Position numbers and translations under genes: made by a program. Under the pieces are notes generated by a model. The model did not search any database and was not told where the DNA came from. It saw nothing but the letters and a program-made list of their open reading frames with translations. Positions 6,548 to 41,136 of a stretch of 64,000 bases of DNA are shown here, piece after piece (the stretch's first letter is position 1; every line of letters starts with the position of its first letter). The stretch comes from Parvicella tangerina (GTDB taxonomy: Bacteria > Bacteroidota > Bacteroidia > Flavobacteriales_D > Parvicellaceae), in contig NZ_OU015584.1 of assembly GCF_907165195.1 (NCBI RefSeq), positions 2,800,978 through 2,864,977 of the forward strand, in the 5' to 3' direction.

Positions 6548-6664
6548 CTGTACCTTGCTCGGTGTTGATTATAAGTCTCTTCACTGAGCCTTTTGGAAAT
6601 ATTATAAAGAAGTAAGAAGAAGCAATAGTATCTAGTTAAAGATAAAGTTCCGAAACCTCTCTAA

Positions 6665-8188
<1,524 letters not shown>

Positions 8189-11816: not shown

Positions 11817-11934
11817 TGATTAACATTTTTTAACTCTAACCCCTTGTAACGTAGTGGTTTTTAAACGTTATCACTACTAACTTTGAACATATACAAAGTA
11901 AATCATTCAATTCATATAACTAAAATTAAATACC

Positions 11935-13089: not shown

Positions 13090-13111
13090 TCAATTTCTTT
13101 GCTTAATGTAT

Positions 13112-13149
13112 AAAAAAGCCTCTTTTATCATTTTGACAAAAGAGGCTTT
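13112..13149. terminator. Terminator shared by the HtrA and aminotransferase genes
   Basis: The stem GCCTCTTTT / AAAAGAGGC has a loop of about 11 bases. The minus-strand side is followed by six T and the plus side by three T, so it mainly ends the aminotransferase transcript and may also end the convergent HtrA transcript. Confidence 0.8.
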
Positions 13150-13170
13150 CACTTAATTATTCATCTTTAT

Positions 13171-14364
13171 TTACTTCAACTTACTCAGTGCTTTATCTAT
13201 TCTTTGCATCGCTTCTTTCAATTCTTCATCACTTGCAGCGTAGGATATTCTAATACAATTCTTATTGCCGAAGGCATTTCCTGTAACGGTTGCAACTTCT
13301 GCCTCCATTAACAAATACATTGTTAAGTCATCCGCATTTTGAATTTTAGTGTCTCCATTTGACTTTCCAAAAAATGATGAGACATCAGGAAAAACATAAA
13401 AAGCTCCTTCAGGCACATTAATATTCACTCCTTCCATTTTATTCAGTTCTGTAAGCACAAAATCTCTTCGTCTTTTAAATGCGTCTCTCATTTCATGTGT
13501 AACCGAAGGATCTGCATTCAACGCAGCTATTGCGGCTCTCTGTGCAATTGAGCAGGTTCCACTTGTTACCTGACCTTGCATTTTGATACATGCTTTCGCA
13601 ATCCATGAAGGCGCACCAATATACCCTAAACGCCAACCCGTCATTGCGAAAGCTTTTGAAAGTCCATTTACAGTAACTACTTGATCAAAAACATCATTAA
13701 ATTGTGCTAAACTCTGGTGCTTTCCAACAAAATTAATATGCTCATATATTTCATCACTGATAACTATGAGGTCTGGATGTTTTACAATCACATCAGCTAA
13801 CGCTCTTAATTCTTCTTTACTGTAAAGACTTCCCGTGGGATTACATGGCGAACTAAAAATCATGAGCTTCGTCTTAGGGGTAATTGCCTCTTCCAATTCC
13901 TTAGCTGTGATTTTGAAATCATTATCAATTGAGGTTTCGATGACTACAGGTGTTCCTTCCGCCAATTTTACAATCTCTTCATAAGTCACCCAATAAGGTG
14001 CTGGAACAATTACTTCATCACCGGGGTTAACAAGGCTAAGCATTACGTTTGCAATTGACTGTTTTGCCCCTGTGGAAACCACAATTTGATCCATTCCGTA
14101 CACTAGTCCATTATCTCTTTTGAACTTGTTAATGACCGCTTCCTTTAGATCTGCATACCCTTCCACTGGCGTGTAGCTTGTGTAGTTTTGATCAATCCCT
14201 TCTTTTGCTGCATCCTTAATAAAGTCAGGCGTGTTAAAATCTGGCTCACCTAAGCTCAAGCCGATAATGTTTTTGCCTTCCGCCTTTAACTCTCTTGTTT
14301 TTCTTGCCATCGCAAGCGTTGCTGATTCTGATAACCTATTCAATCGTTCCGATACCTGTGTCAT
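13171..14364 (-). CDS. Class I aspartate-type aminotransferase
   Basis: A PLP-dependent aminotransferase of subgroup I-gamma/aspartate type with 397 residues. It shows SLGEPDFNTPDFI, SYTPVEGYADLKEA, the SSPCNPTG motif, the SDEIYEH aspartate-tyrosine pair and the PLP lysine in SKAFAMTGWRLGY (Lys237), then the substrate arginine near NCIRISYA. I start at MTQVSERLNRLSES, seven codons inside the longest frame, because homologues start here and the codon follows the A-rich stretch typical of Bacteroidota starts. The exact substrate (aspartate, tyrosine or others) is not certain. Confidence 0.92.
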   Translation of the reverse strand: MTQVSERLNRLSESATLAMARKTRELKAEGKNIIGLSLGEPDFNTPDFIKDAAKEGIDQNYTSYTPVEGYADLKEAVINKFKRDNGLVYGMDQIVVSTGAKQSIANVMLSLVNPGDEVIVPAPYWVTYEEIVKLAEGTPVVIETSIDNDFKITAKELEEAITPKTKLMIFSSPCNPTGSLYSKEELRALADVIVKHPDLIVISDEIYEHINFVGKHQSLAQFNDVFDQVVTVNGLSKAFAMTGWRLGYIGAPSWIAKACIKMQGQVTSGTCSIAQRAAIAALNADPSVTHEMRDAFKRRRDFVLTELNKMEGVNINVPEGAFYVFPDVSSFFGKSNGDTKIQNADDLTMYLLMEAEVATVTGNAFGNKNCIRISYAASDEELKEAMQRIDKALSKLK

Positions 14365-14438
14365 TTTTTTAAGATTTAATATCACAAAGCTAAAAAATGC
14401 ACATTGTTTTCAGCGGGAAAGTTTTAAACAAAACGAGA

Positions 14439-15281
14439 TTATTTAACTTTTGCTTCAACCGGGTACTTCAGCCCTTTATAAGAAGTAAGATATGCCTTGA
14501 CAGACCCAACTAAAATCTCAGCTTGAATAAGCACGGGAATTCTGTTTCTGTCATCTGTTACAAAAACATCCATATATTCTCCATCCTCAAAAATGGTTCC
14601 TTCAATTAGTAGCGGTCTAAATTTAATGCAGTTATAAATAGTTCCGTCTTCTCCTTTCACTCTTTCCTTTCCAGCGTACCTGATGAAAACGCCATCATAT
14701 ATCTGCTTATCTATCATCATTGGGAGCGGTATTGTATCATCTTTTTTCAGGTTATTAAAGTCTAATGTTCTTGCGTAATACACAGCAGTCATAACGTCAA
14801 AAACGCAATTTGGAAACTTAATCTCTTCATGCTGATCTGGGTTATTCTCATTAGCATAAACTGTAGCTTTATTTTTCTCTGCATCGATGTGATAATCGTA
14901 AAACAATTTAAAGCCACCTTCTCTAACCTTTCTTGTAAATCGAACGGGAGTAAGATCATTTTTTCTCGCTATAGAGGCATAATGGTCTCGAACCATAAAG
15001 AAGTAGTCATAACTTTTCAATGATTTGCCTTTACCATCAAAATGAAAACAATCTTGACCTTCATAGGTACTATCTTTTACTTCGAAGCGAACTTTTCCTG
15101 CTGGAACCCACAGTTTTTTCAGGTGATAGTAAGCATCATAATTCAGTTCTTCGCCAGCCTGAAACGGTATTGTTAAAGGCTTACATTGCGAAAATGTTGA
15201 ATTATTCAATATCAAAAAAGCCAATACAAAAGATGCATTGGCTAAGGTACGTTTTAGTATTTCGGGGAAACTACTTTTCAA
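14439..15281 (-). CDS. Secreted DUF3108 domain protein
   Basis: A 280-residue exported protein. A signal peptide (about 1-31, ASFVLAFLILNNSTFSQ) precedes a beta-rich domain starting FQAGEELNYDAYYHLKKLWV, which matches DUF3108, a family of envelope proteins without a known role. There are no membrane segments after the signal. It starts 11 bases before the end of the upstream DUF1573 gene, so the two are coupled; they lie in a run of envelope genes from 18.6 to 14.4 kb. Confidence 0.8.
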   Translation of the reverse strand: MKSSFPEILKRTLANASFVLAFLILNNSTFSQCKPLTIPFQAGEELNYDAYYHLKKLWVPAGKVRFEVKDSTYEGQDCFHFDGKGKSLKSYDYFFMVRDHYASIARKNDLTPVRFTRKVREGGFKLFYDYHIDAEKNKATVYANENNPDQHEEIKFPNCVFDVMTAVYYARTLDFNNLKKDDTIPLPMMIDKQIYDGVFIRYAGKERVKGEDGTIYNCIKFRPLLIEGTIFEDGEYMDVFVTDDRNRIPVLIQAEILVGSVKAYLTSYKGLKYPVEAKVK

Positions 15282-15840
15282 CTACATTCGCTTTAATTCT
15301 TACCATGGTATTTTCTGGAACCGTATTCGCGGTAACGGTAACGACTTTTTCAACTTCTTGACCAGCCTGACCTTTGTTTGGTGTAAACTTAACGTCAATA
15401 TTTGCTGTTTGACCTGGCATAATAGGCTCTTTTGGCCATTGAGGAACCGTACATCCACAAGACCCTTTAGCGTTGGAAATCGTTAATGGCTCATTTCCTG
15501 TGTTCGAAAATTCAAAAGAATAGAGGTTTTCGCTTTCTACTTCCACCGTGCCGAAGTGATGAAGTTCTTCCGCAAACTTAATGGAAGTTGTTGGCCCCTG
15601 AGGCTTTGTATTGTTAGTGGGTAACGGGTTCTTGTTTTCTATTTTTGTTGTGATCTTATTCGGATCATTTGTTCCAGTACTTGGTACCGAATTATTCATT
15701 GTTTTCAGCGAACTAAGGTTAGCAGTCATATCATTTCTTAGGTCACTGATCTCTCCTTTCAAAGAGGATATCTGATAAACGCTTAGTGCACTAATTACCA
15801 ATACAAGTCCTAGTAAGCCCAGTTTTACCTTATCCAACAT
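15271..15840 (-). CDS. DUF1573 domain protein, membrane-anchored
   Basis: A 189-residue protein. An N-terminal hydrophobic segment (about 5-22) is followed by a short coiled-coil-like and low-complexity linker, then one DUF1573 domain (about 85-185). The diagnostic pattern is all there: HHFGTVEVESENLYSFEFSN, GNEPLTI, GSCGCTVPQWPKEPI and PGQTANIDVKFTP. DUF1573 is an Ig-like domain common in Bacteroidota envelope proteins, with unknown function. It overlaps the DUF3108 gene and follows the lipoprotein gene by 24 bases. Confidence 0.88.
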   Translation of the reverse strand: MLDKVKLGLLGLVLVISALSVYQISSLKGEISDLRNDMTANLSSLKTMNNSVPSTGTNDPNKITTKIENKNPLPTNNTKPQGPTTSIKFAEELHHFGTVEVESENLYSFEFSNTGNEPLTISNAKGSCGCTVPQWPKEPIMPGQTANIDVKFTPNKGQAGQEVEKVVTVTANTVPENTMVRIKANVVEK

Positions 15841-15864
15841 AATTTATTGTTTTTGTTTTAGTTA

Positions 15865-16482
15865 TTAATTTGCTAACAGTTTATCCCTTTTATTGTTCAG
15901 AATCTCCACTTGCTTCTTGAAAGCCTCATTTTGAGAGCACTGAAACATTTGAGGTTTAGAGGCAAAGCTATATAAATATTCTTCTTGTTCTGGTCTTGCA
16001 ATCATCAAATTAATATCATCTGGATTCGCTTCGATTTTATCAGCCAAACTAGCAAATGATTTGATCGCGTCCGCATATTCTTCTAAGAAGGCTTTACACT
16101 CATCAGAAATCGGATCTTCTTTTTCTTCTTCAATCTCTTTAATCTCTAGGGACAAATCATTTTCATAAGCTGCCTGAGCAGAGTCCTTTTCAACCTTTGT
16201 TAAGGTATCCATCATGGTAATTTCTTCACCTAAACAATTCTTGATCATCACCGTTCTATCGATTGAATCTTGTTCAGTTTGAGGAACTGGATAGAAAGTA
16301 GCACAAGCCTCTACGTTCTCAGGAAGCGAATCCAAGCACGTGCAGAAATCAATATCTGGCTCTACTACCTGCTTCTTCACATCGCCTTTCTCTTCTTTAC
16401 CTTCCTTTTCCACTTCGTTGCACGAGATGATGAATCCACTTACCAGAATCAACCATCCTCCAAAAAAAACTATTCTTTTCAT
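15865..16482 (-). CDS. Lipoprotein of unknown function
   Basis: A 205-residue lipoprotein with a signal peptide ending in the lipobox FIISC (Cys21), then a highly acidic and lysine-rich tether and a region with spaced cysteines (DFCTCLDSLPENVEAC). The C-terminal half is helical and includes EYADAIKSFASLADKIEANP. I recognise no family. It starts 4 bases after the SPOR protein stop, so it is probably translated from the same mRNA as that outer-membrane protein. Confidence 0.75.
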   Translation of the reverse strand: MKRIVFFGGWLILVSGFIISCNEVEKEGKEEKGDVKKQVVEPDIDFCTCLDSLPENVEACATFYPVPQTEQDSIDRTVMIKNCLGEEITMMDTLTKVEKDSAQAAYENDLSLEIKEIEEEKEDPISDECKAFLEEYADAIKSFASLADKIEANPDDINLMIARPEQEEYLYSFASKPQMFQCSQNEAFKKQVEILNNKRDKLLAN

Positions 16483-30030: not shown

Positions 30031-31851
30031 ATGGCTGAAGAAACAAAAAAAGAAGTTGCAGAAGAAACAAAAACTGCAGCAGCAGAAGCTGCTCAAGCAG
30101 CACCAGTTGAAGAATTCGATTGGGATGCACTAGAAACAGAAACTGACGGATATTCTGCGTCAGAAAAAACAGAACTTTTTGACAGATACGATGAAACGCT
30201 AAACGCGATCAACCAAGGTGAGGTTGTGAATGGTACGGTGATCGCTATGTCTAAGAAAGAAGTTGTTGTAAACATTGGTTACAAAAGCGAAGGAGTTGTA
30301 TCTAGAAATGAATTCAGATATAATGAAGACCTTAAGATCGGTGACCCTGTAGAGTTATTCATTGAAACACTAGAAGACAAGTCTGGTCAATTAGTGGTAT
30401 CTCACAAGAAAGCAAGAATGCATTCTGCTTGGGACAAAGTAAATGAAGTTCTTGAAACAGGTGAGATCATTACTGGACACGTGAAGTGTAGAACCAAAGG
30501 AGGTTTGATTGCAGATGTATTTGGAATCGAAGCATTCTTACCAGGTTCGCAAATTGATGTTAAGCCAATTAGAGATTACGATCAGTACGTAGGGAAGAAC
30601 ATGGAGTTCAAAGTGGTTAAAATTAACCCTGAATTCAAAAACGTTGTTGTTTCTCACAAAGCACTTATCGAAGCTGAGTTGGAAGAGCAGAAGAAACAAA
30701 TCATGTCTGGACTTGAGAAAGGACAGGTATTGGAAGGAATCGTTAAAAACATTACTTCATACGGTGTATTCATCGACCTTGGAGGTGTTGACGGTCTTAT
30801 CCACATCACTGATCTATCTTGGGGAAGAGTTAATCATCCAGAAGAGATCGTTTCACTAGATGAGAAGATCAACGTAGTAATTCTTGACTTTGATGATGAC
30901 AAGAAGAGAATTGCACTTGGATTGAAGCAACTTCAAGCTCACCCTTGGGATTCACTAGATGCTGAATTGAATGTTGGAGATAAAGTTAAAGGAAAAGTAG
31001 TTGTCCTTGCTGACTATGGTGCGTTCATCGAAATCGCTCCTGGTGTAGAAGGATTGATTCACGTTTCTGAAATGAGCTGGTCTCAGCACTTGAGAACTGC
31101 TAATGACTTCTTGAACATCGGTGACGAAGTTGAAGCTCAAATCTTGACTTTAGATAGAGAAGAAAGAAAAATGTCTCTTGGAATCAAGCAATTAATGCCA
31201 GATCCATGGGAAGGAATTGAAGATAAGTACCCAGTAGATTCTAAGCATAAATCAACGGTTAAAAACTTCACTAACTTCGGTGTATTCGTTGAGTTAGAAG
31301 AAGGTATTGATGGTTTGATCCACATTTCTGACCTTTCTTGGGAGAAAAAGATCAAGCACCCATCAGAATTCTGTAATGTCGGTGATACTATGGAAGTTGT
31401 TGTTCTTGAGCTAGACAAAGAGAACAGAAGACTAAGCCTAGGTCACAAGCAGTTAGAAGACAACCCATGGGATACTTATGCAACAATCTTTACTGAAGGT
31501 TCTGAACACGAAGGAACTGTTGTTAAAGTGAAAGATAAGTCAGGTATTGTTTCATTAACTCACGGAGTTGAAGGATTCTGTCCAGTGAAACACATGGCTA
31601 AAGAAGATGGATCAAGCTTGAATGTTGACGAGAAAGCTACATTCAAAGTAATTGAATTCAACAAGGATTCTAAGAAGATCATTGTATCTCATGCAGCTGT
31701 ATGGGGTGAGATCGAAGAAACTAAGAAAAGAACAAGCGCTGCTAGAACAAGCAAAGCAATGAAGAACCTTAACGATTCTTCTGAGAAGACAACTCTTGGT
31801 GACTTAGATGCACTTGCAGAATTGAAAGAAAAAATGGACAAAGGGAAGTAA
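30031..31851 (+). CDS. rpsA: 30S ribosomal protein S1
   Basis: The 606 residues contain six S1 RNA-binding domains. Their starts read GEVVNGTVIAMSKKEVVVNI, GEIITGHVKCRTKGG, GQVLEGIVKNITSYGVFIDL, GDKVKGKVVVLADYGAFIEI, SKHKSTVKNFTNFGVFVEL and GSEHEGTVVKVKDKSGIVSL. S1 binds mRNA leaders to help initiation, which matters in Bacteroidota where Shine-Dalgarno sites are weak. An acidic/alanine-rich N-terminal tail (about 1-35) precedes domain 1. Codon use is strongly biased as expected for a highly expressed gene. A strong terminator follows, and a structured leader precedes it. Confidence 0.95.
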   Translation: MAEETKKEVAEETKTAAAEAAQAAPVEEFDWDALETETDGYSASEKTELFDRYDETLNAINQGEVVNGTVIAMSKKEVVVNIGYKSEGVVSRNEFRYNEDLKIGDPVELFIETLEDKSGQLVVSHKKARMHSAWDKVNEVLETGEIITGHVKCRTKGGLIADVFGIEAFLPGSQIDVKPIRDYDQYVGKNMEFKVVKINPEFKNVVVSHKALIEAELEEQKKQIMSGLEKGQVLEGIVKNITSYGVFIDLGGVDGLIHITDLSWGRVNHPEEIVSLDEKINVVILDFDDDKKRIALGLKQLQAHPWDSLDAELNVGDKVKGKVVVLADYGAFIEIAPGVEGLIHVSEMSWSQHLRTANDFLNIGDEVEAQILTLDREERKMSLGIKQLMPDPWEGIEDKYPVDSKHKSTVKNFTNFGVFVELEEGIDGLIHISDLSWEKKIKHPSEFCNVGDTMEVVVLELDKENRRLSLGHKQLEDNPWDTYATIFTEGSEHEGTVVKVKDKSGIVSLTHGVEGFCPVKHMAKEDGSSLNVDEKATFKVIEFNKDSKKIIVSHAAVWGEIEETKKRTSAARTSKAMKNLNDSSEKTTLGDLDALAELKEKMDKGK

Positions 31852-31872
31852 TTCTCTTAGAGCTAATATTTT

Positions 31873-31912
31873 AAAGGTCCAGACGCTTCATGCGCTCTGG
31901 ACCTTTTTTTTT
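31873..31912 (+). terminator. Terminator of rpsA
   Basis: A long stem, GGTCCAGACGC / GCGCTCTGGACC with one mismatch, is followed by nine T. Its T-run touches the palindrome of the next promoter. Confidence 0.85.
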
Positions 31913-31956
31913 GTAACAAAGGTTACTGTGTGCTTCGAATGTGCAATGTACTTTTC
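31912..31956 (+). promoter_or_regulatory. Crp/Fnr-type operator and promoter of the T9SS cargo gene
   Basis: The palindrome TGTAAC-AAAG-GTTACT (31912-31927) is centred 29.5 bp before the first T of TACTTTTC (31949-31956), a one-base variant of TAnnTTTG. This is the layout of the sulfide-locus promoters, here on the plus strand. Confidence 0.65.
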
Positions 31957-31971
31957 GAAAAATTATTTTTT

Positions 31972-33564
31972 ATGCGAGTACTTAGCACCTTATCATTATT
32001 TCTTGTTGCTCTGATGACTTACGGACAACAATTCGACTACACACTATCATTAACCCCGGTAACTATTCCAAATCTCACTGGTATTCATTCCTATGCTTTT
32101 GGTCAGGATAATGGAAAGTGGCTCATTGTAGGCGGAAGACTGGATGGAATCCATCCAAGACCAGCAAACAGTTCATTTCCAGCAAGCTCGAACAATACCG
32201 ACCTTTACGTTATTGATCCTCAGACTGAACAATTTTGGTCAGCCCCGTTAAGTAGTTTACCTACCAGTACTCAAGAACAACTTCAGAGTACCAATATGAA
32301 TTTCAGACAAGTGGGTGATACCCTTTACATCATTGGTGGATATGCTTACTCCAATACAGCTGCCGATCACATCACTTTTCCCAACCTGACCACTATTATT
32401 GTTTCCTCAACCATCGATGCAATTGTCAATAACCAATCATTCTCTGGATATTTTCAGCAAATCACAGATCAAGAGTTTGCCATCACCGGGGGACAGCTTG
32501 CCTATCTGGATGACAAGTTTATGCTTGTTGGTGGACATCGATTTGATGGAAGATACAACCCCATGGGTAATCCGTCTTACACTCAAACCTATCATACCGG
32601 TTATAAAACCTTTGAGATCAATAATACTGCTGGAAATTTGAATTATGCTAATCTCGTTCAAACAACCGATGCAGTTCACCTAAGAAGACGTGACTACAAC
32701 CTCATGCCTCAAGTCTATCCAGACGGTACGTTGGGTTACATGATCAGTGCTGGAGTATTTCAGGCCGTTACAGACATGCCCTTTCTCTACCCTGTTGACA
32801 TTAACTCCTCTGGGTATATTCCTCAAACAAGTTTTAATCAATACTTAAGTCATTACCATAGTGCAACAACCTCTATGTATGACGCAACGAATAACAGGAT
32901 GCACAATATCTTCTTTGGAGGTTTAAGTCAGTATTACTACGACAATGGAAGCTTAGTGCAAGACGATAACGTTCCCTTTGTAAAAACGATAAGTCTGGTA
33001 ACTCGAGAGGCGGACAGCACTTTAACAGAATATCAATTACCGCTGGAGATGCCGGGATTAAAAGGAGCAAGCGCTGAATTCATCCCTAATCTTGCACTCG
33101 ATCATTATGAGAATGAAGTCCTAAAACTTAACACCATAAGTGGTGACAGCACCCTACTTGGTTGGATTTTTGGCGGAATAGAGAGTTCTAGTTTAAATCC
33201 ATTCGCAAACAATACGATTGCAGACACACAAGCCGACAACACCATCTATGAAGTTTGGATCAAAGCGGCTCCTTTGGCTGTGGATCAGATTGATGGAAAA
33301 AACCCATACCGTTTTGAAGTTTTGCCCAACCCTGTTGATCAAGAATATACTTTGCGAATTTCAAACCCTTCAGCCAAACGCATGGATTATTACATCGCTG
33401 GGTTGGATGGAAAAATTGTAGAAAAAGACCATTTACTTGACGTCAATCAGGGGACTATTGATTATACGATGACGAGAAGTTCATCTATCAGTCAAGGAAT
33501 TTACCTTATGACTTTAGTCTTTGATGGAAAATATTTCGTAACGAAGAAAGTTGTTTTTGAGTAA
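31972..33564 (+). CDS. Secreted kelch-like propeller protein with T9SS sorting domain
   Basis: A 530-residue exported protein. It has a signal peptide (MRVLSTLSLFLVALMTYGQQ), a large beta-propeller-like region with repeated GG-containing blades (KWLIVGGRLDG, TLYIIGGYAYS, KFMLVGGHRFDG, IFFGGLSQYY, IFGGIESSS) and a C-terminal type A T9SS sorting domain (about 455-530, FEVLPNPVDQEYTLRI to YFVTKKVVFE). It should therefore be exported by the type IX system to the surface or outside. I start at the signal-peptide methionine: the upstream part of the frame overlaps the -7 box. The operator suggests control with sulfide genes; substrate unknown. Confidence 0.82.
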   Translation: MRVLSTLSLFLVALMTYGQQFDYTLSLTPVTIPNLTGIHSYAFGQDNGKWLIVGGRLDGIHPRPANSSFPASSNNTDLYVIDPQTEQFWSAPLSSLPTSTQEQLQSTNMNFRQVGDTLYIIGGYAYSNTAADHITFPNLTTIIVSSTIDAIVNNQSFSGYFQQITDQEFAITGGQLAYLDDKFMLVGGHRFDGRYNPMGNPSYTQTYHTGYKTFEINNTAGNLNYANLVQTTDAVHLRRRDYNLMPQVYPDGTLGYMISAGVFQAVTDMPFLYPVDINSSGYIPQTSFNQYLSHYHSATTSMYDATNNRMHNIFFGGLSQYYYDNGSLVQDDNVPFVKTISLVTREADSTLTEYQLPLEMPGLKGASAEFIPNLALDHYENEVLKLNTISGDSTLLGWIFGGIESSSLNPFANNTIADTQADNTIYEVWIKAAPLAVDQIDGKNPYRFEVLPNPVDQEYTLRISNPSAKRMDYYIAGLDGKIVEKDHLLDVNQGTIDYTMTRSSSISQGIYLMTLVFDGKYFVTKKVVFE

Positions 33565-33687
33565 TTTTAGGCTGCTCAATAATTCCTACCCTTTAAAATC
33601 TAAAGTTCTAGAGCAACTGTTTTATACCTGCATGCTATGGTAAATTCATTAGTACGATAAAAAGTCTTTTGGATTCACTAAATTAGC

Positions 33688-33743
33688 GACTATAACCATA
33701 GTTGTTTTGAATGATATAGGGTTTATGTCTACGTTGCGGTGGC
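33688..33743 (+). mobile_element. Possible attC-like site at left end of the cassette array
   Basis: GACTATAACC (33688-33697) and GGTTTATGTC (33720-33729) can pair with one extrahelical T across a 22-base loop, and R'-like GTTGCGGTGGC follows at 33733-33743. The left R'' arm is not clear, and the loop does not match the other sites, so this is the least certain member. Confidence 0.35.
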
Positions 33744-33781
33744 ATTCCAAAAAAATAATATCAGAATTAAAATAATCTGTT

Positions 33782-33805
33782 TACATTTGTATCCAAGTGA
33801 ATACA
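33782..33805 (+). promoter_or_regulatory. Promoter and operator of the toxin-antitoxin pair
   Basis: -7 TACATTTG (33782-33789) overlaps the inverted repeat TGTAT-N8-ATACA (33788-33805). A repressor bound there would block the promoter, as usual for HigA-type autoregulation. No clear -33 box is seen. Confidence 0.5.
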
Positions 33806-33812
33806 ACTACGT

Positions 33813-34112
33813 ATGTATATAATTGAAAAGACTCCTGAATTTGATAAGTGGTTGAGGAAACTCAAGGACAGAAGAGCTAAAGCTAAAATCTTATTCAGGA
33901 TTCAAAGAATTGAGGAGCAAGGAAATTTTGGAGACTGTCAACCAATAGGAGAAGGACTAAGCGAATTGAGAATTCACTATGCAAAAGGTTACCGAGTATA
34001 TATTAAAGAATATAGCGGAACCATTGTAATTCTTCTGAATGGAGGTGATAAATCAACTCAGTCAAAAGATATTGCAAAAGCAAAAGATTTATGGACGAAA
34101 TACAAGAAATAA
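33813..34112 (+). CDS. RelE/HigB-like toxin (putative addiction module killer)
   Basis: A 99-residue basic protein of the Gp49-like/HigB group in the RelE/ParE superfamily, probably an mRNA-cutting toxin. It shows TPEFDKWLRKLKDRRAKAKI, RIQRIEEQGNFGD, GLSELRIHYAKGYRVYI and the typical end ILLNGGDKSTQSKDIAKAKD. The antitoxin starts inside its stop codon (TAATG), so the order is toxin first, as in higBA. It is the first cassette of the array; toxin-antitoxin pairs commonly stabilise integron arrays. Confidence 0.88.
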   Translation: MYIIEKTPEFDKWLRKLKDRRAKAKILFRIQRIEEQGNFGDCQPIGEGLSELRIHYAKGYRVYIKEYSGTIVILLNGGDKSTQSKDIAKAKDLWTKYKK

Positions 34113-34393
34113 TGAGCACTACAAAATTTAATATAGCAGATTATTTAGATGACAATGAAATGATTGTTGAGTATTTAAACAACATTTTGGAAGAAGGCGA
34201 TTCTTCTGATATTATTTCCGCAATTGGTCACGTTGCGAAAGCAATTGGAATGACTAAAATTGCTGAAGATACAGGTATGAGCCGACCTAGCTTATACAAA
34301 GCACTTTCTGAAAACTCTAAACCTCAGTTTGAAACTATTCTCAAAGTTCTCAGAGCCATCGGAGGTAATATACAGATCAACCCAGCAGCATAA
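34112..34393 (+). CDS. HTH antitoxin of the addiction module
   Basis: A 93-residue helix-turn-helix antitoxin of the family that pairs with Gp49-like toxins. It begins MSTTKFNIADYLDDNEMIV, and the HTH is at MTKIAEDTGMSRPSLYKALS. I use the ATG overlapping the toxin stop (TAATG), not the upstream start seven codons earlier, as this matches homologues. It should bind the toxin and repress the palindrome upstream of the toxin. The stop lies 8 bases before the R'' box of the next attC-like site. Confidence 0.88.
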   Translation: MSTTKFNIADYLDDNEMIVEYLNNILEEGDSSDIISAIGHVAKAIGMTKIAEDTGMSRPSLYKALSENSKPQFETILKVLRAIGGNIQINPAA

Positions 34394-34401
34394 AAAATAA
34401 C

Positions 34402-34475
34402 GCCACACAACAATGAGTAAAAAAGCATACCTTGCCTAATCAAACCGTAACGCTTTTTACTCTAAGCGTTGTGGC
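34402..34475 (+). mobile_element. attC-like site A
   Basis: R'' GCCACACAAC (34402-34411), L'' GAGTAAAAAAGC (34415-34426), a 25-base loop, L' GCTTTTTACTC (34452-34462) and R' GTTGTGGC (34468-34475). L arms pair fully with one extrahelical A. Total 74 bp, within the attC range. The loop contains CCTTGCCTAATCAAACCGT. Confidence 0.7.
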
Positions 34476-34487
34476 TAATTTCGAAGA

Positions 34488-34992
34488 ATGAAAAACATAC
34501 TGCTAATTATCATTGCTATTTTCTTGGTTGCTTGTCAACATGGGATTACAGGTTATAATATTGAGGAATTTGAATCCAAAATTGAGTCTGTAGAAAATTC
34601 CAATATTCAGAATAAAAAACTAGAAGACGGATGGTACGCACCATCACAAGAGAAAAATGATTTTATGAAAATTGATCCAAAAACATCAATGAAAACTTAC
34701 ATTGATCCTAGACCTATAATTTTACCCGAAAACATCAGTAGTTTTGAAGAATTTGAAAATTACGAAGGTTCTAAGGGGTTTAGCAATATACTTTGAGGAA
34801 GCGGGAATTGAGGCTTGGGCTCGAGCTACTGACAAACTTACTGGTTCAAGTATAATTTTCATCTTAGACAATGAAATCTTAACCGTGCAGCAAGTCAACT
34901 CGAAAATTACAAATGGTGCTTCAGCATTTTGGAAATCCGATTTGGACGATCAAGATTGGAAAAGAATAATGAAAATGGTAAAAAATAGCTAA
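34488..34992 (+). pseudogene. Frameshifted lipoprotein with SecD P1-like domain
   Basis: Two overlapping frames form one protein. The first (from 34488) has a lipoprotein signal ending FLVACQ and runs to FEEFENYEGSKG. The second continues GLAIYFEEAGIEAWARATDK and ends DDQDWKRIMKMVKNS at 34992. The break is at GGGGTTT (34775-34781); one base must be skipped, a +1 shift. The second part (IIFILDNEILTVQQVNSKIT) resembles the SecD/SecDF periplasmic P1 head. The rejoined protein would have about 167 residues. A true mutation or a sequence error is likelier than programmed shifting, since no -1 slippery site fits. The gene is in cassette 2. Confidence 0.6.
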
Positions 34993-34998
34993 TCAAAA

Positions 34999-35011
34999 CA
35001 TTGGCAACAAG
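34999..35011 (+). repeat. Direct repeat of an attC R''-like segment
   Basis: TTGGCAACAAGG here recurs as TTGGCAACAAAGG at 35927-35939, where it is the R'' side of site B. No L', loop or R' follows here. It may be the scar of an attC lost by deletion between two former cassettes. Confidence 0.4.
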
Positions 35012-35015
35012 GAAT

Positions 35016-35921
35016 ATGAAAATAAAATTTATAATACCACTTTTGATAATTATTCAAAGCTGTTCTTCTAGCACAACAAATGAAGAACACATGAATAAAA
35101 CTATAGAAGCGGACACTGTAGGTGTTCAATTAAATTATTTAGAAAGCTTTCATAATAGGAAAACCGTGAATGATTTAGATGCTTCTTTGACTGAATATAT
35201 TTTATCAAATCCAAATAGACCAGACTCAATTCATACTACAATTTATTTATTACCATTTGGCAATATGAAGCCAGAAGTAGAACAAATTATATCAAATGAG
35301 ATTGATTATCTAGAAACATTCTTTCAAATGCCTGTAAAAATACTACCTCGAATTACATTTGATGAAGTAAAACAAAATGCGCAAATAAAAACAAGATTTG
35401 TCCCCGATTCAGACTATGGATATTATGAAAAGATGAAAGGTGGAGCCGAAAATTTACGGGAACAAATTGAAGCATCTTCTTTTATGAATAAATATATGAT
35501 TGATCAGAAGCCCGAAGATGCTGTTGCCGTTTTAGGAATCACTGAACATGATATTTATAATTCATCGTATAATTTTTTATTTGGAAGTTCATCTACTAAG
35601 AATGGAGTTGGATTAATCTCTACTTTTAGATTAATCGACTATGGAAAACAAACAAAATATAACATCAGAAAAGTAGTTTCTAAGCAAATTGTAAATCTGT
35701 TTTCCATTCGAAATGTCAAAGACTATGAGTGTCTTCTAAATTTTCACAATAGTAAAGAAGAATTAGAGCTGGGCGAATTTAAATTATCGCCAAGAGCCCT
35801 TGAAAAATTCAAATACAATATTGGATTTGACTACAATAAAAGATTTAAAGAATTAGAGCAGATTTGGTTAGAAGAAGGGAATAAAAGCCTAAGCGAATAT
35901 TATCAAAAGTGTCAAAAATAA
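35016..35921 (+). CDS. Archaemetzincin-like lipoprotein lacking the zinc site
   Basis: A 301-residue lipoprotein (signal ending in lipobox IIQSC, Cys16). It follows the archaemetzincin (M54) plan: IYLLPFGNMKPEVEQIIS, MPVKILPRI, then DAVAVLGITEHDIYNSSYNF with FLFGSSSTKNGVGLISTFRL. Where the family has HExxHxxGxxH, this protein has VVSKQIVNLFSIRN (about 220-233), with neither the histidines nor the glutamate. Most cysteines of the structural zinc knuckle are also gone (only the one in DYEC remains). I infer a non-catalytic homologue. The start is the ATG before the signal peptide; the longer frame begins at a TTG inside a repeat. Confidence 0.65.
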   Translation: MKIKFIIPLLIIIQSCSSSTTNEEHMNKTIEADTVGVQLNYLESFHNRKTVNDLDASLTEYILSNPNRPDSIHTTIYLLPFGNMKPEVEQIISNEIDYLETFFQMPVKILPRITFDEVKQNAQIKTRFVPDSDYGYYEKMKGGAENLREQIEASSFMNKYMIDQKPEDAVAVLGITEHDIYNSSYNFLFGSSSTKNGVGLISTFRLIDYGKQTKYNIRKVVSKQIVNLFSIRNVKDYECLLNFHNSKEELELGEFKLSPRALEKFKYNIGFDYNKRFKELEQIWLEEGNKSLSEYYQKCQK

Positions 35922-35926
35922 ACCAG

Positions 35927-36000
35927 TTGGCAACAAAGGCTAAAACACAAAGTCCTAGCCTACCAAACTGTTTCTTCGTATTTTAACTGCAACGTTGTAG
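35927..36000 (+). mobile_element. attC-like site B
   Basis: R'' TTGGCAAC (35927-35934), L'' GGCTAAAACACAAAG (35938-35952), loop, L' CTTCGTATTTTAACTG (35974-35989), R' GTTGTAG (35994-36000). On the top strand the L arms have mismatches; on the bottom strand these become G-T pairs, giving about 14 continuous pairs. Bottom-strand folding is what integron integrases use. The loop contains CCTAGCCTACCAAACTGTTT. Confidence 0.65.
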
Positions 36001-36012
36001 GTGATTTGAAAA

Positions 36013-36762
36013 ATGACAATTTTAGAGATATTAAATACTACTGAACATAGACCTTGGAAAATTCCAACGGGCAAATGGAAATTCTATCAAGAGTGGAATA
36101 ATGTAGTATTTCTTCATTATCAGGTTGACTTGATTGAATTGAAAAAATTTGTTCCTGAAGAACTGGAAGTTGACCTCTTTGAAGGTAAACCATGGATCTC
36201 AGTAGTTGCCTTCACAATGGAAAAGATAAGACCTAAAAACTTACCCAGTTTTCCACCAATATCAGATTTTGACGAAATCAACATTCGGACTTATGTAAAG
36301 TCACATGGTAAAACTGGAGTTTACTTCTTGAGTATCGAAGGTGGGAAAAATTTATCCTGCAAAGTCGCAAAAGGAATTTCAGAACTTCCATATCGATTTT
36401 CAAAGATAAAAAGGACTGAGCATAAGTATCGACCACAGAATTCGGAACTCAACGACCGCCTTGATATTGAGTATAAAATAGGAAAAGAACAAACTGTGAA
36501 ATCCGAATTGGACAAATGGTTGACTGAGAGATATGCTCTATTTCAAGATACTGGCGACTCGATTAACGAATTTGAAATACACCATTTGGAATGGCCTATA
36601 AATGAAATTGAACTACAGAGTTTGGATATTAATTATCCAAGGTTTGTAAAATTGATCAATGAGAAGCCGAGCAAAACACATTATTCCAGAGGCGTACAAG
36701 TTATTGCATGGGGGAAAATAAAAAAAGAAAAAACTAGCTACAACAACACTTATAGGCAATAG
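36013..36762 (+). CDS. DUF2071 (YqjF-like) protein
   Basis: A 249-residue soluble protein of the DUF2071/YqjF family, whose function is unknown. It shows WNNVVFLHYQVDLIELKKFV, PEELEVDLFEGKPWISVVAF, INIRTYVKSHGKTGVYFLSI and a C-terminal ARGVQVIAW-like SRGVQVIAWG. The last residues (TSYNNTYRQ) are encoded by the R'' and L'' arms of site C, so the reading frame ends inside the recombination site, a common feature of integron cassettes. The gene starts 12 bases after the R' box of site B. Confidence 0.85.
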   Translation: MTILEILNTTEHRPWKIPTGKWKFYQEWNNVVFLHYQVDLIELKKFVPEELEVDLFEGKPWISVVAFTMEKIRPKNLPSFPPISDFDEINIRTYVKSHGKTGVYFLSIEGGKNLSCKVAKGISELPYRFSKIKRTEHKYRPQNSELNDRLDIEYKIGKEQTVKSELDKWLTERYALFQDTGDSINEFEIHHLEWPINEIELQSLDINYPRFVKLINEKPSKTHYSRGVQVIAWGKIKKEKTSYNNTYRQ

Positions 36763-36803
36763 CGCCCTGCGTGACGCTAACGCGCATAGTCCAAATGTTG
36801 GGT
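36737..36803 (+). mobile_element. attC-like site C
   Basis: R'' GCTACAAC (36737-36744) and R' GTTGGGT (36797-36803) flank partly paired arms ending in GCGC (about 36771-36774 and 36782-36785). Arms are less regular and the loop does not carry the shared sequence of sites A, B and D. The R'' is an exact complement of the start of its own cassette (GTTGTAG at 35994). Confidence 0.5.
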
Positions 36804-36827
36804 GTCATCTAAAAAAATCGAAACAGT

Positions 36828-37160
36828 TTGCTGAACCTAAAAGAGACATATCGAAACTCTAGGAACAAAGAATATATTATTCTTACAGCTATCTTAATAT
36901 TGACAGTTGCAATTGCAATAATCTTTTATTTTGGAGAAGTCTCGAGAAACAATACTGAAATTGAGGAATTGAAACAGATTCCATTATCGCATATTCACGA
37001 CAACATCAATGGTGCGAAATATGTCAAATCAAAAAAAATTGTAGAATTGCTCGAGGAGAACAAAAGAACCAGCCTTTGGTATATGTCTTTCTTTAAGATA
37101 GTCGCCTATGTCAATTTTGGAGCGTTCCTAATAGTTCTGCTTTATAAATGGAAAAATTGA
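36828..37160 (+). CDS. Small two-helix membrane protein
   Basis: A 110-residue protein of no family I recognise. It has two membrane segments, near residues 16-36 (EYIILTAILILTVAIAIIFY) and near 86-106 (FFKIVAYVNFGAFLIVLLY), with a charged region between them that would lie on one side of the membrane. The start codon is TTG (first codons TTG CTG AAC), chosen because no ATG precedes the first helix. It is the only gene in its cassette, which begins at 36797 and ends at site D. Confidence 0.6.
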   Translation: MLNLKETYRNSRNKEYIILTAILILTVAIAIIFYFGEVSRNNTEIEELKQIPLSHIHDNINGAKYVKSKKIVELLEENKRTSLWYMSFFKIVAYVNFGAFLIVLLYKWKN

Positions 37161-37161
37161 C

Positions 37162-37237
37162 GACACCTAGCATTGACTAAAATTAAACAGCCTTGCCTAC
37201 CAAACCGTTTCTGCTTATCTTAGTCGAAGCGTTATAC
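37162..37237 (+). mobile_element. attC-like site D
   Basis: R'' GACACCTAGC (37162-37171), L'' GACTAAAATTAAACAG (37175-37190), loop of 20 (37191-37210), L' CTGCTTATCTTAGTC (37211-37225), R' GTTATAC (37231-37237). On the bottom strand the L arms give 15 pairs, two of them G-T, with a single extrahelical base. The loop reads CCTTGCCTACCAAACCGTTT, almost as in sites A and B. This is the clearest site of the set. Confidence 0.72.
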
Positions 37238-37248
37238 GCAATGACAAA

Positions 37249-37994
37249 ATGAGCAGAAAGGATCAAAAAGAACAAGAAAAAAAGACATTGAACTGTTCCT
37301 TTCCCTAAGTGGCATAAAGCACAATTCGTTTGATCTTGACTGTGAAAAACCCGACTGTGACTTTAAGATAAGTAATAAGAATATTGGAATTGAGGTTACA
37401 GAATTTGTTCGATCCAAGGAGTATTGTTCAAAGGTTAGATCTGTAAACGCAACGCTGGACCGAATCAGAAGAGAAACAAAAGCTGAAATAAAAGAATTTA
37501 CTGACATTAATTTGACTCTTAACTTCTCACAACACTCTCCTCCTCCGAGAAAAATCAATATGAATGATCGTTTAAACATAATTAACTTTTTAGTTAATCA
37601 TGTGAAAAAACAGGAAATTCATGATAAACTTGGAAAAGACCTGTTTCACATCGAATATGAATATTCTAAGGACGAAAACGAATTCATTGAATCGGTCAGA
37701 GTTTCAACCTATCCAAATAAGCAAACACTAGATGTCACTGAAAATAAATTCTTCATGACTGGGGTAATTCCTAAAGCAGATATTGATGATATTATTAATG
37801 AAAAAGAGCCCAAAATGGACTTCACAAGAAATGATGAAACTTGGTTATTAATGGTTGTTGCCGAAACTGAATATTCGTCAGGCATTATCAAACCAGATGT
37901 ATTGGAATATAAGTTTGATTCTTGTCTTTTTGACAAGATATTTATGCTAGAACGATTTTCAAAAAATCTTTATGAGTTAAATAAATGCGTATAA
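37249..37994 (+). pseudogene. Frameshifted nuclease-like gene (PD-(D/E)XK-like)
   Basis: The ATG at 37249 opens MSRKDQKEQEKK and runs into a seven-A tract (37277-37283), after which this frame soon stops. The next frame continues without a stop as DIELFLSLSGIKHNSFDLDC to the end at 37994. With one more A the two join into about 248 residues. The joined protein carries EKPDCDFKISNKNIGIEVTE, which looks like the PD...ExxE core of a restriction-type nuclease fold. It could be a dead gene, a sequence error, or rescued by transcriptional slippage on the A-run. It is the last gene of the array and abuts the half-site GCGTATAAC. Confidence 0.6.
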
Positions 37995-37995
37995 C
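37987..37995 (+). mobile_element. Terminal attC half-site (R'' only)
   Basis: GCGTATAAC is the exact complement of GTTATACGC at the start of this cassette (37231-37239). No paired L arms or R' box are visible after it, so the array seems to end in a truncated or decayed attC. Confidence 0.45.
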
Positions 37996-38165
37996 ACCAC
38001 GTACAAAACACTGCCACGATTGCTATTTCGAAGTGTAAATAATTAAAGATGCCGACAAAAGTCAGAAAAAAACATTCATTCAAACGAAGCCCGACTCGAC
38101 TCCTCCCAATTTGCATTTGACAGTTATCCTGCTTAAATTAAGCATAAATCAAAAAGAGATCAATT

Positions 38166-38597
38166 ATGTCAGCAAGAAAAGCAAAAGCCACTTGGAGTGG
38201 CACTTTAAAAGAAGGGAATGGAAAAATGAAATTCAACAACTATGACGGACCGTTTACCTTCGCTTCCCGTTTTGAGGACGGTGAAGGAACAAACCCCGAA
38301 GAATTGGTTGGAGCTGCTCACGCTGGTTGCTATTCTATGTTTCTTTCCGCACTGCTAAGCGCAGAAGAATTAAGTCCGAAAAGTATAGAAACAAATGCCA
38401 CTGTAACTCTTGAAAAAGATGATATAGGACCTAACATTACCGCCATTAATTTAAACTGTACCGTAACTTGTGAAGGGTTAACACAAGAAAAATTTGAGGA
38501 GTTAGCATCGGCAGCTAAAGATAAGTGTCCGATATCAAGACTTTATGCCGGTGGTACAGCAACAATTCATTTAGATGCTAAATTAACGTCTGCATAA
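38166..38597 (+). CDS. OsmC family peroxiredoxin
   Basis: A 143-residue OsmC-type thiol peroxidase that reduces organic hydroperoxides. The two reactive cysteines are present in AAHAGCYSMFLSALL (Cys57) and KDKCPISRLYAGG (about Cys122). The whole sequence fits OsmC more than Ohr (for example the start ARKAKATWSGTLKEGNGKM and the FASRFEDGEGTNPEELVGAA block). It stands alone after the cassette array and marks the return to ordinary chromosomal genes. Confidence 0.92.
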   Translation: MSARKAKATWSGTLKEGNGKMKFNNYDGPFTFASRFEDGEGTNPEELVGAAHAGCYSMFLSALLSAEELSPKSIETNATVTLEKDDIGPNITAINLNCTVTCEGLTQEKFEELASAAKDKCPISRLYAGGTATIHLDAKLTSA

Positions 38598-38825
38598 GTT
38601 TAATCTTCTAACAAAAAATGATATTAAATCTCGTTTAGCTCAACCGTTAACAGCATTAAAATCACATCGATTAATATCAAAATTCAGCTCTTTGGCTCAG
38701 TACTAAAAACAAAATTTGTAACTTCATCCTCAATGGCGCCAACTTCATTAACCCTTTCTTTCAGTACAATGAGTAGTCTAGGTGGGAAGAAGGGCTAATT
38801 TAACCATCAACGAATAAACCATAAG
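38598..38825 (+). other. Intergenic stretch before the histidine kinase
   Basis: About 230 bases without a supported gene. I see no convincing promoter, repeat or RNA element here. Confidence 0.4.
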
Positions 38826-39839
38826 GTGAACAACAAGGAATACTTAAACGTTTTAAACTCTTTGAAAGAAGGATTTCAGATTCTTGACAAGGATTTAAAG
38901 TATGTTTTTTTGAATAGAGCAGCAGAACAGCACAGTAGAATGCCACCAGACAGCCTGATTGGTCGTAAAATGACGGAATGCTATCCTGGTATCGAGAAAA
39001 CCAAACTTTTTGAATTGATTCAGGACACCTTAAATAACAAAAGACACAATGAATTAGACAATGAGTTTTTTTATCCGAGTGGCGAAAAAGGATGGTTCAA
39101 GTTATCTATTCAGTACTCAAACGAACGTATCTTTATTGTTTCTCATGACATCACTGAACTCGTGAATAAAAACAAGGAACTGGAACAGTTTTCATACATA
39201 ACTTCTCACGATCTCCAGGAGCCTATTAATTCCATTATCTCATTTGTTCGATTGCTTGAAAAAGACAAAGAGAAAATGAGTCCGATGAGTCTTAAAAGTA
39301 TTGAAGTAATTGCAAAATCTGCCAACAGAATGAAAGACTTCGTGGTATCCCTTCTGGAGTTTTCTAAGGTTGGGGCAGAAAAAGAAAAGGCAGAAGTCAA
39401 TATTGAAAATTTAGTAAACAACTTAAAAGTAGACCTACACAGTCTTATTGAGCAAAGTCAGGCAACGGTTAATTACCAGGGAGGACCAATAACACTGATG
39501 GCATTTGAATCTGACTTGACCAAGTTATTTCAAAACCTCATTGTCAATGGTATCAAATACACCAAAGAAGGAATTCGTCCTGTAGTCACTATAGACGTTG
39601 AAGAAATGCATGAGAAATACAAATTTTCTGTCACAGATAACGGCATCGGAATAGCTGAAGAACAACACCACAAGATCTTTGAAGTGTTCAGAAGATTACA
39701 TGCCCGTGACGAATATTCAGGAACAGGGATTGGACTTGCGCATTGCAAAAAAGTAGCAGAATTGCATAGCGGTGAGATCTGGTTGACTTCTGAACCTGGC
39801 AAAGGATCTACTTTCTATTTTACCATATCTAAACGTTAA
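38826..39839 (+). CDS. PAS-domain sensor histidine kinase
   Basis: A 337-residue soluble kinase without membrane segments. It has a PAS domain (about 8-112), a HisKA dimerisation helix with the phospho-accepting histidine His128 in FSYITSHDLQEPINSI, and a HATPase domain (about 230-337) with NLIVNGIKYT, VTDNGIGI and GTGIGLAHCKKV. This is the phytochrome-like kinase class, often paired with small response regulators. The start is GTG. The regulator gene begins 5 bases after its stop, so they act as a pair. Confidence 0.9.
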   Translation: MNNKEYLNVLNSLKEGFQILDKDLKYVFLNRAAEQHSRMPPDSLIGRKMTECYPGIEKTKLFELIQDTLNNKRHNELDNEFFYPSGEKGWFKLSIQYSNERIFIVSHDITELVNKNKELEQFSYITSHDLQEPINSIISFVRLLEKDKEKMSPMSLKSIEVIAKSANRMKDFVVSLLEFSKVGAEKEKAEVNIENLVNNLKVDLHSLIEQSQATVNYQGGPITLMAFESDLTKLFQNLIVNGIKYTKEGIRPVVTIDVEEMHEKYKFSVTDNGIGIAEEQHHKIFEVFRRLHARDEYSGTGIGLAHCKKVAELHSGEIWLTSEPGKGSTFYFTISKR

Positions 39840-39844
39840 CAAAA

Positions 39845-40231
39845 ATGCAAAGCCTAAACAGAATTATGCTCGTTGATGACGACTCAGACACCAACTATTT
39901 TAACCAGTATATTTTAGACGAAGAAGGAATTGCTGACAATATTGTTGTCTTTCAACACGCCATCAAAGCTCTTGACTACCTCAAGGAAGGCAATGAAAAG
40001 GTAGACTTGATTCTTCTAGACATTAATATGCCAGTAATGAACGGTTGGGAGTTTTTGCAAGAGTATGAACAATTAGACGATCAACTAAAGGCGACTATCG
40101 TTGTTGTAATGTTAACCTCCTCTGTAAACTACGAGGACAAAAAAAGAGCAGACCAATTGAAGTCGATCGACAAGTTTGTAAATAAACCGTTGACACCAGA
40201 ATTAGTTACCGAAATTTTGGCATTATTTTAA
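39845..40231 (+). CDS. Single-domain response regulator (Rcp1-like)
   Basis: A 128-residue receiver domain without an output domain. The acidic pocket is VDDDSD (Asp11-13), the phosphorylation site is Asp59 in LILLDINMP, with Thr91 (MLTSS) and Lys114 (VNKPLT). It most probably takes phosphate from the kinase just upstream and acts by protein contact or passes phosphate on. Confidence 0.92.
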   Translation: MQSLNRIMLVDDDSDTNYFNQYILDEEGIADNIVVFQHAIKALDYLKEGNEKVDLILLDINMPVMNGWEFLQEYEQLDDQLKATIVVVMLTSSVNYEDKKRADQLKSIDKFVNKPLTPELVTEILALF

Positions 40232-40278
40232 CAATGCTCCTAATGGGGACAAATCTTTAATGCTAACATTAAAAAAAG

Positions 40279-41136
40279 TTAATAGGTACTTGTCATATCT
40301 TCATCCACAACGATGATAAAATCTGCTATACCCAAGTATTCCTCTTCCAACTTCGAGACATCGCTTTGCAGTACCACTGATATATTAAACACCTTTAGTG
40401 CTGGGGCATATTGATTGATATACCACCCAATCCCCTCTTTGTTATCTGAGTGAAAACTTCCGTTAAGGTGGTAAAAGACATTACCCTCTCCCGTTGTAAA
40501 ATTCGTCACAATAAAATGAGCCATGGTCGCATCTTTAATAGCCTGAGCTTTAGGGAAGTTCTCCCCTCCATGTCCTCCCATCATCTCCAACATTTTTTGG
40601 TAACAAGGCACGTTAATATCAAACGGGATGGGTAACGGAGCAATATCTTTTTTCTCATCTTCTGACAAACCTTCTAGTGACTCCAACCCTTGTTTATAGA
40701 CCTGCGAAGCATACTTTCTCACAATGTTCGTTGCGATAAAATCTGCATCAAACTCCTTGGCTAAGTCCACAACGGGCAAGTAATCGGTAAAGAAATTATT
40801 CCAAAGACCTGCAATTGAATCAAACTGCTCTGCCGTAATTTCATCTTTCATGTATTGCGTCAAGAACTCCTGCTCATCACGTTCGAACATTTCTGCACCA
40901 AAGATGATCTCCTCACCATTCTCTAACAAATACTTCCCAACTTCATATTGCAACCAATGCGCAATAGGATTATCATGAAGTTCTCCAAAAAGCACCACAT
41001 CAGCATCCCAAATTTGTTTAGTCATTTTCTTGAAATTTGCTTTCTTTCCTTTCCCTGTAAAAATCTGATAAGCCGCATCTTGAGCGGAGTATAAAGTAAT
41101 GACAAAGCAGAAGATTGATCCGATGAAATATTTCAT
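40279..41136 (-). CDS. ChaN family heme-binding-like protein
   Basis: A 285-residue exported protein with signal peptide MKYFIGSIFCFVITLYSAQ. It has the ChaN signature DADVVLFGELHDNPIAHWLQ, then GAEMFERDEQEFL, QAIKDATMAHFI and FYHLNGSFHSDNKEGIGWYI. ChaN of Campylobacter binds two cofacial hemes; a role in iron uptake is known for that family and is inference here. No lipobox cysteine follows the signal, so it is probably periplasmic. It is convergent with the response regulator gene. Confidence 0.88.
   Translation of the reverse strand: MKYFIGSIFCFVITLYSAQDAAYQIFTGKGKKANFKKMTKQIWDADVVLFGELHDNPIAHWLQYEVGKYLLENGEEIIFGAEMFERDEQEFLTQYMKDEITAEQFDSIAGLWNNFFTDYLPVVDLAKEFDADFIATNIVRKYASQVYKQGLESLEGLSEDEKKDIAPLPIPFDINVPCYQKMLEMMGGHGGENFPKAQAIKDATMAHFIVTNFTTGEGNVFYHLNGSFHSDNKEGIGWYINQYAPALKVFNISVVLQSDVSKLEEEYLGIADFIIVVDEDMTSTY

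Follow-up and report, generated by a model that had tools for sequence, protein, structure and literature searches.

What would move the cassettes of an integron-like array that lies in a Bacteroidota chromosome with no integrase beside it? The question is raised by a cluster of genes and repeated sites at 33713-37995 of a 64,000-nucleotide stretch of Parvicella tangerina DNA (the window), which covers positions 2800978-2864977 of the 3.98 Mb single-contig genome. An earlier note on this DNA had described an integron-like cassette array without an integrase, containing three attC-like sites (A, B and D). Our analysis confirms the observation and partly supports the interpretation. We consider it very probable that the cluster represents a satellite array, now partly decayed, of an integron-like Bacteroidota system, and that its cassettes were most likely mobilised in trans by a tyrosine recombinase that is encoded 1.08 Mb away and lacks the additional domain (I2) of the integron integrase IntI.

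A covariance model (R1) was trained on 39 integrase-adjacent sites from other genomes, with the window sites excluded from training, and scored at every position of 33000-39000 of the window and, in a separate run, on the whole genome. Within 33000-39000 it recovered site A (41.8 bits), site D (30.1 bits) and site B (25.3 bits) where the earlier note had placed them, as well as a site C (16.7 bits) absent from that note; all four are on the forward strand, and the strongest remaining match scored 7.2 bits. Across the genome R1 gives 17 hits at E ≤ 1, sites A, D and B included, and a short site resembling site A is located at genome position 3941518. With its filters off, the covariance search misses long-loop sites that the default filters find. 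A first core-motif pattern (GCCTANYCAAACYGTWWC), which pointed to a site at 3941551, was dropped as too loose, with 109 matches compared to 153 in a reversed control. When folding energies were compared with those of shuffled sequences, site A alone stood out (z of approximately -2.3 on both strands), while sites B, C and D folded no better than shuffles (z -0.8 to +0.7); since plain folding fails to separate these three, their support comes from R1 and from the cassette ends. An Rfam scan of the cluster region gave no attC-like or other RNA family at gathering score, the weak matches at E ≤ 10 being attributable to chance.

No recombinase gene is present among the open reading frames of window positions 31000-41000. 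The absence of an integrase thus holds locally but not genome-wide, as a candidate integrase gene at genome 3916379-3917521 heads a one-directional array of 17 sites, located directly behind it and extending to 3941585, with further matches to 3946154. This main array, the sites of which are also matched by R1, lies approximately 1.08 Mb from the window cluster.

The candidate is the best match in the genome to the IntI model TIGR02249, with 204.6 bits against a cut-off of 265, and no gene in the genome exceeds that cut-off; the search for intI suggested by the earlier note therefore finds a recombinase, but not an IntI. The protein falls just below the cut-off of NF040815 (site-specific tyrosine recombinase/integron integrase; 217.5 against 220), and fails the equivalog tests for both XerD (191.9, cut-off 329.6) and XerC (174.4, cut-off 335.15). 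The spacing between the KG.KDR and H.LRH motifs is 64-72 residues in 89/89 proteins of the family to which it belongs, compared with 106 in 29/29 canonical IntI of the phylum (a 107-residue outlier proved to be a regular-expression artefact). Judged by sequence, the array-linked recombinase and its relatives are not IntI, the I2 domain being missing. As the IntI test failed, the system has not been filed as an IntI integron. In a tree of 37 sequences, IntI forms a single clade (100/100) that excludes the new family, and two Xer-like proteins of this genome are separate from both, the sampling being small and the root uncertain. Residues 100-374 of the predicted recombinase fold most closely resemble XerA (5hxy, Z 24.8), followed by IntI (2a3v, Z 22.3). 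The N-terminal 70 residues fold confidently (predicted local distance difference test score 91), and no credible Pfam family was found for this domain. Its structure matches, the damage-recognition domain of XPB (Z 7.0) and the HARP domain of SMARCAL1 (Foldseek E 0.087), both fall below the level at which kinship is demonstrated. The XPB damage-recognition domain and HARP are modules that recognise distorted or forked DNA. The resemblance of the predicted structures is a lead, too weak to prove kinship.

We compared 160 sites using an equal-length alignment of the arms (A3), a whole-site MAFFT alignment having misplaced them. The A of the conserved ends always follows AAC, while the C always precedes GTT, and the R box takes the form GTTR(N6)A(T). 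The box is cassette-specific, with 109 different heptamers. Stem columns 1-6, which served for selection of the sites, are paired in 97-100%; columns 8-11 and 13-16, which were not part of the selection, are paired in about 70-90%. In the training set, 170 double-change cells were counted, compared with 67.8 in shuffles, which ignore relatedness, and 26-47 in slid controls. Covariation, stem columns and the R1 matches in the window together bear out the R''-L''-loop-L'-R' order with GTT/AAC ends that had been proposed. On the top strand, column 7 and column 12 each show A.C in 68% of sites, which gives G.T on the bottom strand. In 148/160 sites the L stem is predicted to be more stable as bottom strand, by a mean of -2.5 kcal/mol, while 117/160 L stems are collinear and need no bulge, and so differ from the sites of IntI integrons, where extrahelical bases select the bottom strand. 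The strand asymmetry noted earlier as the mark of attC is hence present across the family, but the single extrahelical bases invoked with it are not its mark; it arises mainly from the G.T wobbles.

The cassettes themselves carry a second signature. In the main array, the first 10 bases of a cassette (GTTR...) are the reverse complement of its own last 10 in 15/17 cases (9-10 of 10 positions), when compared with approximately 5.3 positions for other pairings. The two exceptions correspond to a missed short site (3924858) and a three-base shift. Such complementarity is, as far as sequence can tell, the remnant of a circular cassette that opened at one site. In the window, the start at site D (GTTATACGCA) matches positions 37986-37995 at 10/10; the start at B matches the end at C, and the start at C the end at D, at 8/10 each. 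For the left boundary (33733) and the end at A, the ungapped match is 6/10.

Several observations imply, from the sequences compared, that cassettes have moved in the past. Five copies of one 464-bp cassette exist in the genome: two lie in the main array and the others at approximately 1.342, 1.725 and 0.189 Mb. The identity between copies stops at GTT on either side and the flanks differ; a short attI-like dyad precedes each of the three remote copies. One such dyad sequence is found four times in the genome and not at all in the reversed control. A 787-bp cassette is tandemly duplicated. The main array contains erm(F) as a single-gene, single reversed cassette (genome 3927648-3928944, L041:648-1944; Erm(F) 599.2 bits, cut-off 575), and this cassette recurs at 95-97% identity in plasmids. 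We read four of these, from uncultured pRGF00034, Parabacteroides faecis, Riemerella anatipestifer and Flagellimonas marinaquae: the cassette borders are the same on all, starting with GTTATGCGG and ending in CGTT, while the flanks differ on both sides, save that pRGF00034 and Parabacteroides faecis share theirs, giving three contexts. In a genome of the same genus (G002), the interval between rpsA and ChaN, which in P. tangerina contains the window cluster, is approximately 1.0 kb as compared to 8.4 kb here, and holds one different cassette with an own-end match of 10/10. An OsmC neighbour was rejected as synteny anchor, as it is not conserved in relatives; rpsA and ChaN served instead. The earlier note was prepared to abandon its reading had covariance-model hits been lacking, had no similar sites existed elsewhere in the genome or its relatives, or had gene content been identical in related strains. 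What we find is the opposite on each count: R1 hits in the window, similar sites both elsewhere in the genome and in relatives, and different content in G002.

Integrase-less cassette clusters (L202, L203, L204 and L206) were also seen downstream of ordinary genes, for example a coproporphyrinogen oxidase-like gene, each behind a short dyad; these dyads are near-identical. They give the impression that the attI-like element was itself copied.

An integrase-alignment scan of bacterial and archaeal species genomes yielded at least 534 relatives of the recombinase. The best 80 of these are mostly Flavobacteriia (Aquimarina, Winogradskyella, Gillisia, Tenacibaculum, Maribacter and others), and also include some metagenome-assembled genomes of Saprospiraceae, Flammeovirgaceae and Prolixibacteraceae. 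We took 50 family loci in which the sequence continues for 800 bases or more past the gene and searched for chained cassettes, using the upstream regions as a control: three or more chained cassettes are located downstream in 33/50 loci, compared with 1/50 upstream. A reverse-strand version of the chain test is symmetric by construction and so provides no control, and a need=8 setting over the whole window was discarded, as chance gave chains of 17. Most of the loci that extend far enough have a short dyad and GTTR near the integrase stop codon. In most loci a small zinc-finger-like gene with weak similarity to DUF2116 precedes the integrase and is divergent to it (e.g. L039 7495-7884), its product being a possible partner or regulator. 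Shorter relatives lacking I2 (e.g. L062) also head cassettes. The earlier note had supposed such arrays to be rare in the phylum; the integron-like system is common, not rare, in Flavobacteriia.

A mechanism that would accommodate these data can be outlined. The recombinase encoded at 3916379-3917521 would make and move the window cassettes in trans. The bottom strand of a cassette site would fold into a hairpin, with R''/R' ends GTTR...YAAC, an L stem of 6+4+4 pairs containing two G.T wobbles, and spacers of 3 nt and 5-6 nt, and the recombinase would perform strand exchange at the conserved CGTT. The cassette would depart as a circle and could re-enter at one of three kinds of place: the GTT-ending attI-like dyad that follows the integrase gene, a comparable dyad elsewhere, or another site. 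We infer the bottom strand as substrate, and the crossover base, from predicted stability and the conserved CGTT. Either the N-terminal domain or the G.T pairs may perform the work done elsewhere by I2 and extrahelical bases. The window cluster would have been filled in trans and now be decaying, a reading prompted by the weak ends of cassettes 1 and 2 and the degenerate R'' of site D.

The alternative that survives best departs from this mechanism in one step only: the array is real, but is moved by Xer-like recombination of double-stranded DNA, with the hairpin and its asymmetry not forming the substrate. The catalytic spacing of the recombinase is Xer-like, XerA is its best fold match ahead of IntI, and the attI-like sites are perfect short dyads, all as a double-strand reaction would have it. 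Under such a reaction, however, two conserved A.C columns and a more stable bottom strand in nearly all sites would have no reason to persist. We regard it as unlikely, while recognising it as the main rival for the single-strand step.

A second possibility is that the window holds a cluster of attC sites lacking integrases (CALIN) left by a former canonical IntI integron, the I2-less recombinase being merely an unrelated neighbour of the main array. CALINs are common (PMC8618304), and canonical IntI above cut-off does exist in the phylum, in 84/296 genomes. However, none is above cut-off here and only one genome of that sample (G096) is in the same class; moreover, R1, which recognises the window sites, was trained on sites linked to recombinases without I2, and it is loci of such recombinases that run directly into arrays. 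We give this origin little credence. A similarly low probability applies to the proposal that host XerC/XerD or another tyrosine recombinase moves the cassettes, as with Xer-exploiting elements, and that the array-linked enzyme has another role. The genome does encode several other tyrosine recombinases, and Xer is known to integrate the folded single-stranded genome of the CTX phage (PMC4792948), but the array starts within tens of bases of the recombinase stop codon, with an attI-like dyad, in dozens of loci from many genera. Finally, the repeats could be dispersed terminator or repetitive extragenic palindromic (REP)-like hairpins between horizontally acquired genes, as their intergenic position and the poor folding of three window sites would allow, but this reading is unable to predict the own-end complementarity, the five exact-border copies, the same borders on plasmids of other orders or the G.T pairs on one strand, and is largely refuted by the first three of these.

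A number of points weigh against mobilisation by the I2-less recombinase. Recombination is itself deduced from sequence, and the other tyrosine recombinases of the genome are possible actors on the sites. The start at site A matches the end at site B at only 4/10, which is background level; cassette 2 thus has either a decayed border or a composite structure. Sites B, C and D score below the main-array sites; together with the weak own-end matches of cassettes 1 and 2, this means that the array in the window could be inert. Furthermore, Messier and Roy 2001 and later work, as cited in PMC7790495, hold that IntI cannot capture cassettes without I2, which makes an I2-less enzyme with this function unexpected.

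The window cluster can be described as five cassettes, all on the forward strand. It does not start at 33733, as the earlier note had it, but at approximately 33713 with a degenerate attI-like element (33713-33735; GATATAGGGTTTATGTC-TAC-GTT), a weak resemblance that was established by eye against the attI-like dyads behind integrases; 33733 is retained as the cassette start (GTTGCGGTGGCAT). Cassette 1 (33733-34467, borders GTT at 33733 and 34468) encodes a type II toxin-antitoxin pair, with a RelE/ParE family toxin (upstrm_HI1419/Gp49; 33813-34112; TIGR02683 122.9 bits, cut-off 62.85; PF05973) and an antitoxin (dnstrm_HI1420; 34091-34393; TIGR02684 108.9 bits, cut-off 53.7; PF21716). These are 66% and 74% identical, respectively, to the pair in an integrase-linked array of Aquimarina agarilytica (L089). 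Site A follows at 34401-34479 (E 8e-9). Cassette 2 (34468-35993) contains a short lipoprotein-like open reading frame (34488-34796) and two others (34744-34992 and approximately 35031-35921), followed by site B (35924-36005, E 8e-5). Cassette 3 (35994-36796) encodes a DUF2071 protein (36013-36762; PF09844 190.7 bits) and is bounded by site C (36734-36808), which at E 0.009 in 6 kb is weak alone and is supported by the own-end matches on both sides. Cassette 4 (36797-37230) has a 110-residue open reading frame (36828-37160), and site D (37161-37242, E 5e-6) has the degenerate R'' CCTAGC. Cassette 5 (37231-37995) contains a 234-codon open frame (approximately 37290-37994) without a Pfam family and ends in the R'' TGCGTATAAC at 37986-37995, downstream of which no L'-R' was found. 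All genes between the sites share one orientation, as had been claimed: the toxin-antitoxin pair, the three frames of cassette 2 (without family or with weak hits), the DUF2071 gene, the 110-residue frame and the 234-codon frame. Elsewhere in the window, a complete rRNA operon with tRNA-Ile and tRNA-Ala occupies 3356-8188 on the minus strand.

Besides erm(F), the main array has a gene for a class D beta-lactamase. MerTP, MerA and an ArsR-like regulator are grouped in one of its regions (L041 6148-8814). Phage-defence genes are present as well (L039 10905-12886, L041 1993-2793): a type II methyltransferase accompanied by a nuclease-like protein, and a homologue of UzuA. The hosts of the erm(F) cassette include gut and poultry bacteria. 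On the Flagellimonas plasmid, a recombinase annotated xerA directly adjoins the erm(F) cassette (L231 5093-5911). The Riemerella anatipestifer plasmid NZ_CP072192.1 (L233) has five chained cassettes at 10638-16257, carrying catB, estT, erm(F), ere(D) and one further unit, with no integrase. Unexplained direct repeats (DR2/DR3) have been described around the erm/ere genes of Riemerella (PMC4481100), and these may be attC-like sites of the system. Four group II introns of this genome lie within attC-like site clusters (L041 17180-19000; L205 4008-4460 and 6936-7235; L206), matched by RF02001 at 110-112 bits and antisense in the family sites. The three junctions read show RYYYA^ACAA, equivalent to TTGT/T on the bottom strand. 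This is the same position as the TTGT/T target reported for group IIC-attC introns, which lends the sites independent support; the introns here were assigned with the D1-D4 models of Rfam and by a group II reverse transcriptase.

Beyond the window, we lean slightly towards viewing the family as a second integron lineage, in which the integrase never had or lost I2 and the sites use G.T wobbles, active across Flavobacteriia and other Bacteroidota and a source of erm(F)-type cassettes. It could be a pre-I2 survivor or an independent invention, with the XPB/HARP-like N-terminal domain possibly replacing I2. PMC7790495 describes I2 as indispensable to cassette capture and as found in no other protein; its origin is an open question there, and the lack of intermediates is deplored. 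I2 is further said to have evolved together with the extrahelical bases (PMC4792948). A family that shares the integron anatomy but has no I2, and mostly no extrahelical bases, makes the question of I2 origin testable. Bacteroidota are listed as integron-bearing in the literature, with reference to IntI, and just one complete integron was reported for Bacteroidetes with IntegronFinder 2.0 (PMC9024848). Compared with that one case, the arrays in 33 loci of the chain test suggest that a large cassette pool has been overlooked, which would include erm(F), a class D beta-lactamase gene, mercury resistance and phage-defence genes. In an 'integron-like' subgroup of tyrosine recombinases, conservation of the CAT insertion is incomplete according to Smyshlyaev 2021 (PMC8138268). 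We found no paper linking I2-less recombinases to arrays or describing this system, subscription papers and preprints being outside the search.

How, then, does the system compare with those already known? With the sedentary chromosomal IntI integrons of the Vibrio type it shares a tyrosine recombinase next to an attI-like site, a one-directional array, folded sites with R and L arms, a GTT crossover motif, a bottom-strand bias, toxin-antitoxin and resistance cassettes, and integrase-less satellite clusters. An integrase adjoining an array with a primary insertion site is present for the main array and the 33 chained family loci, the window cluster itself not being adjacent to one. In contrast to IntI integrons, the recombinase is without I2 and mostly has an N-terminal domain of approximately 70 residues, the integrase is co-directional with the cassettes, the attI-like site is a short dyad, and a divergent zinc-finger-like gene is present in most loci. 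The L stems are mostly without extrahelical bases and have two G.T wobbles, while the R complementarity is cassette-specific over approximately 10 bp. From its sequence, the system is integron-like on every readable feature except the integrase insertion and the extrahelical bases. When compared with XerA/Xer, the recombinase is alike in sequence and fold, but Xer resolves dimers at dif on double-stranded DNA, whereas the gene here heads cassette arrays. Taken alone, the window cluster fits the definition of a CALIN (two or more attC sites within 4 kb and no nearby integrase), sites A-D lying within 2.8 kb as identified by R1 rather than by IntegronFinder models. However, the family that includes its sites is linked to a recombinase other than IntI, and, since I2 is absent from the candidate integrase and its relatives, the cluster would not be an ordinary CALIN of a known integron.

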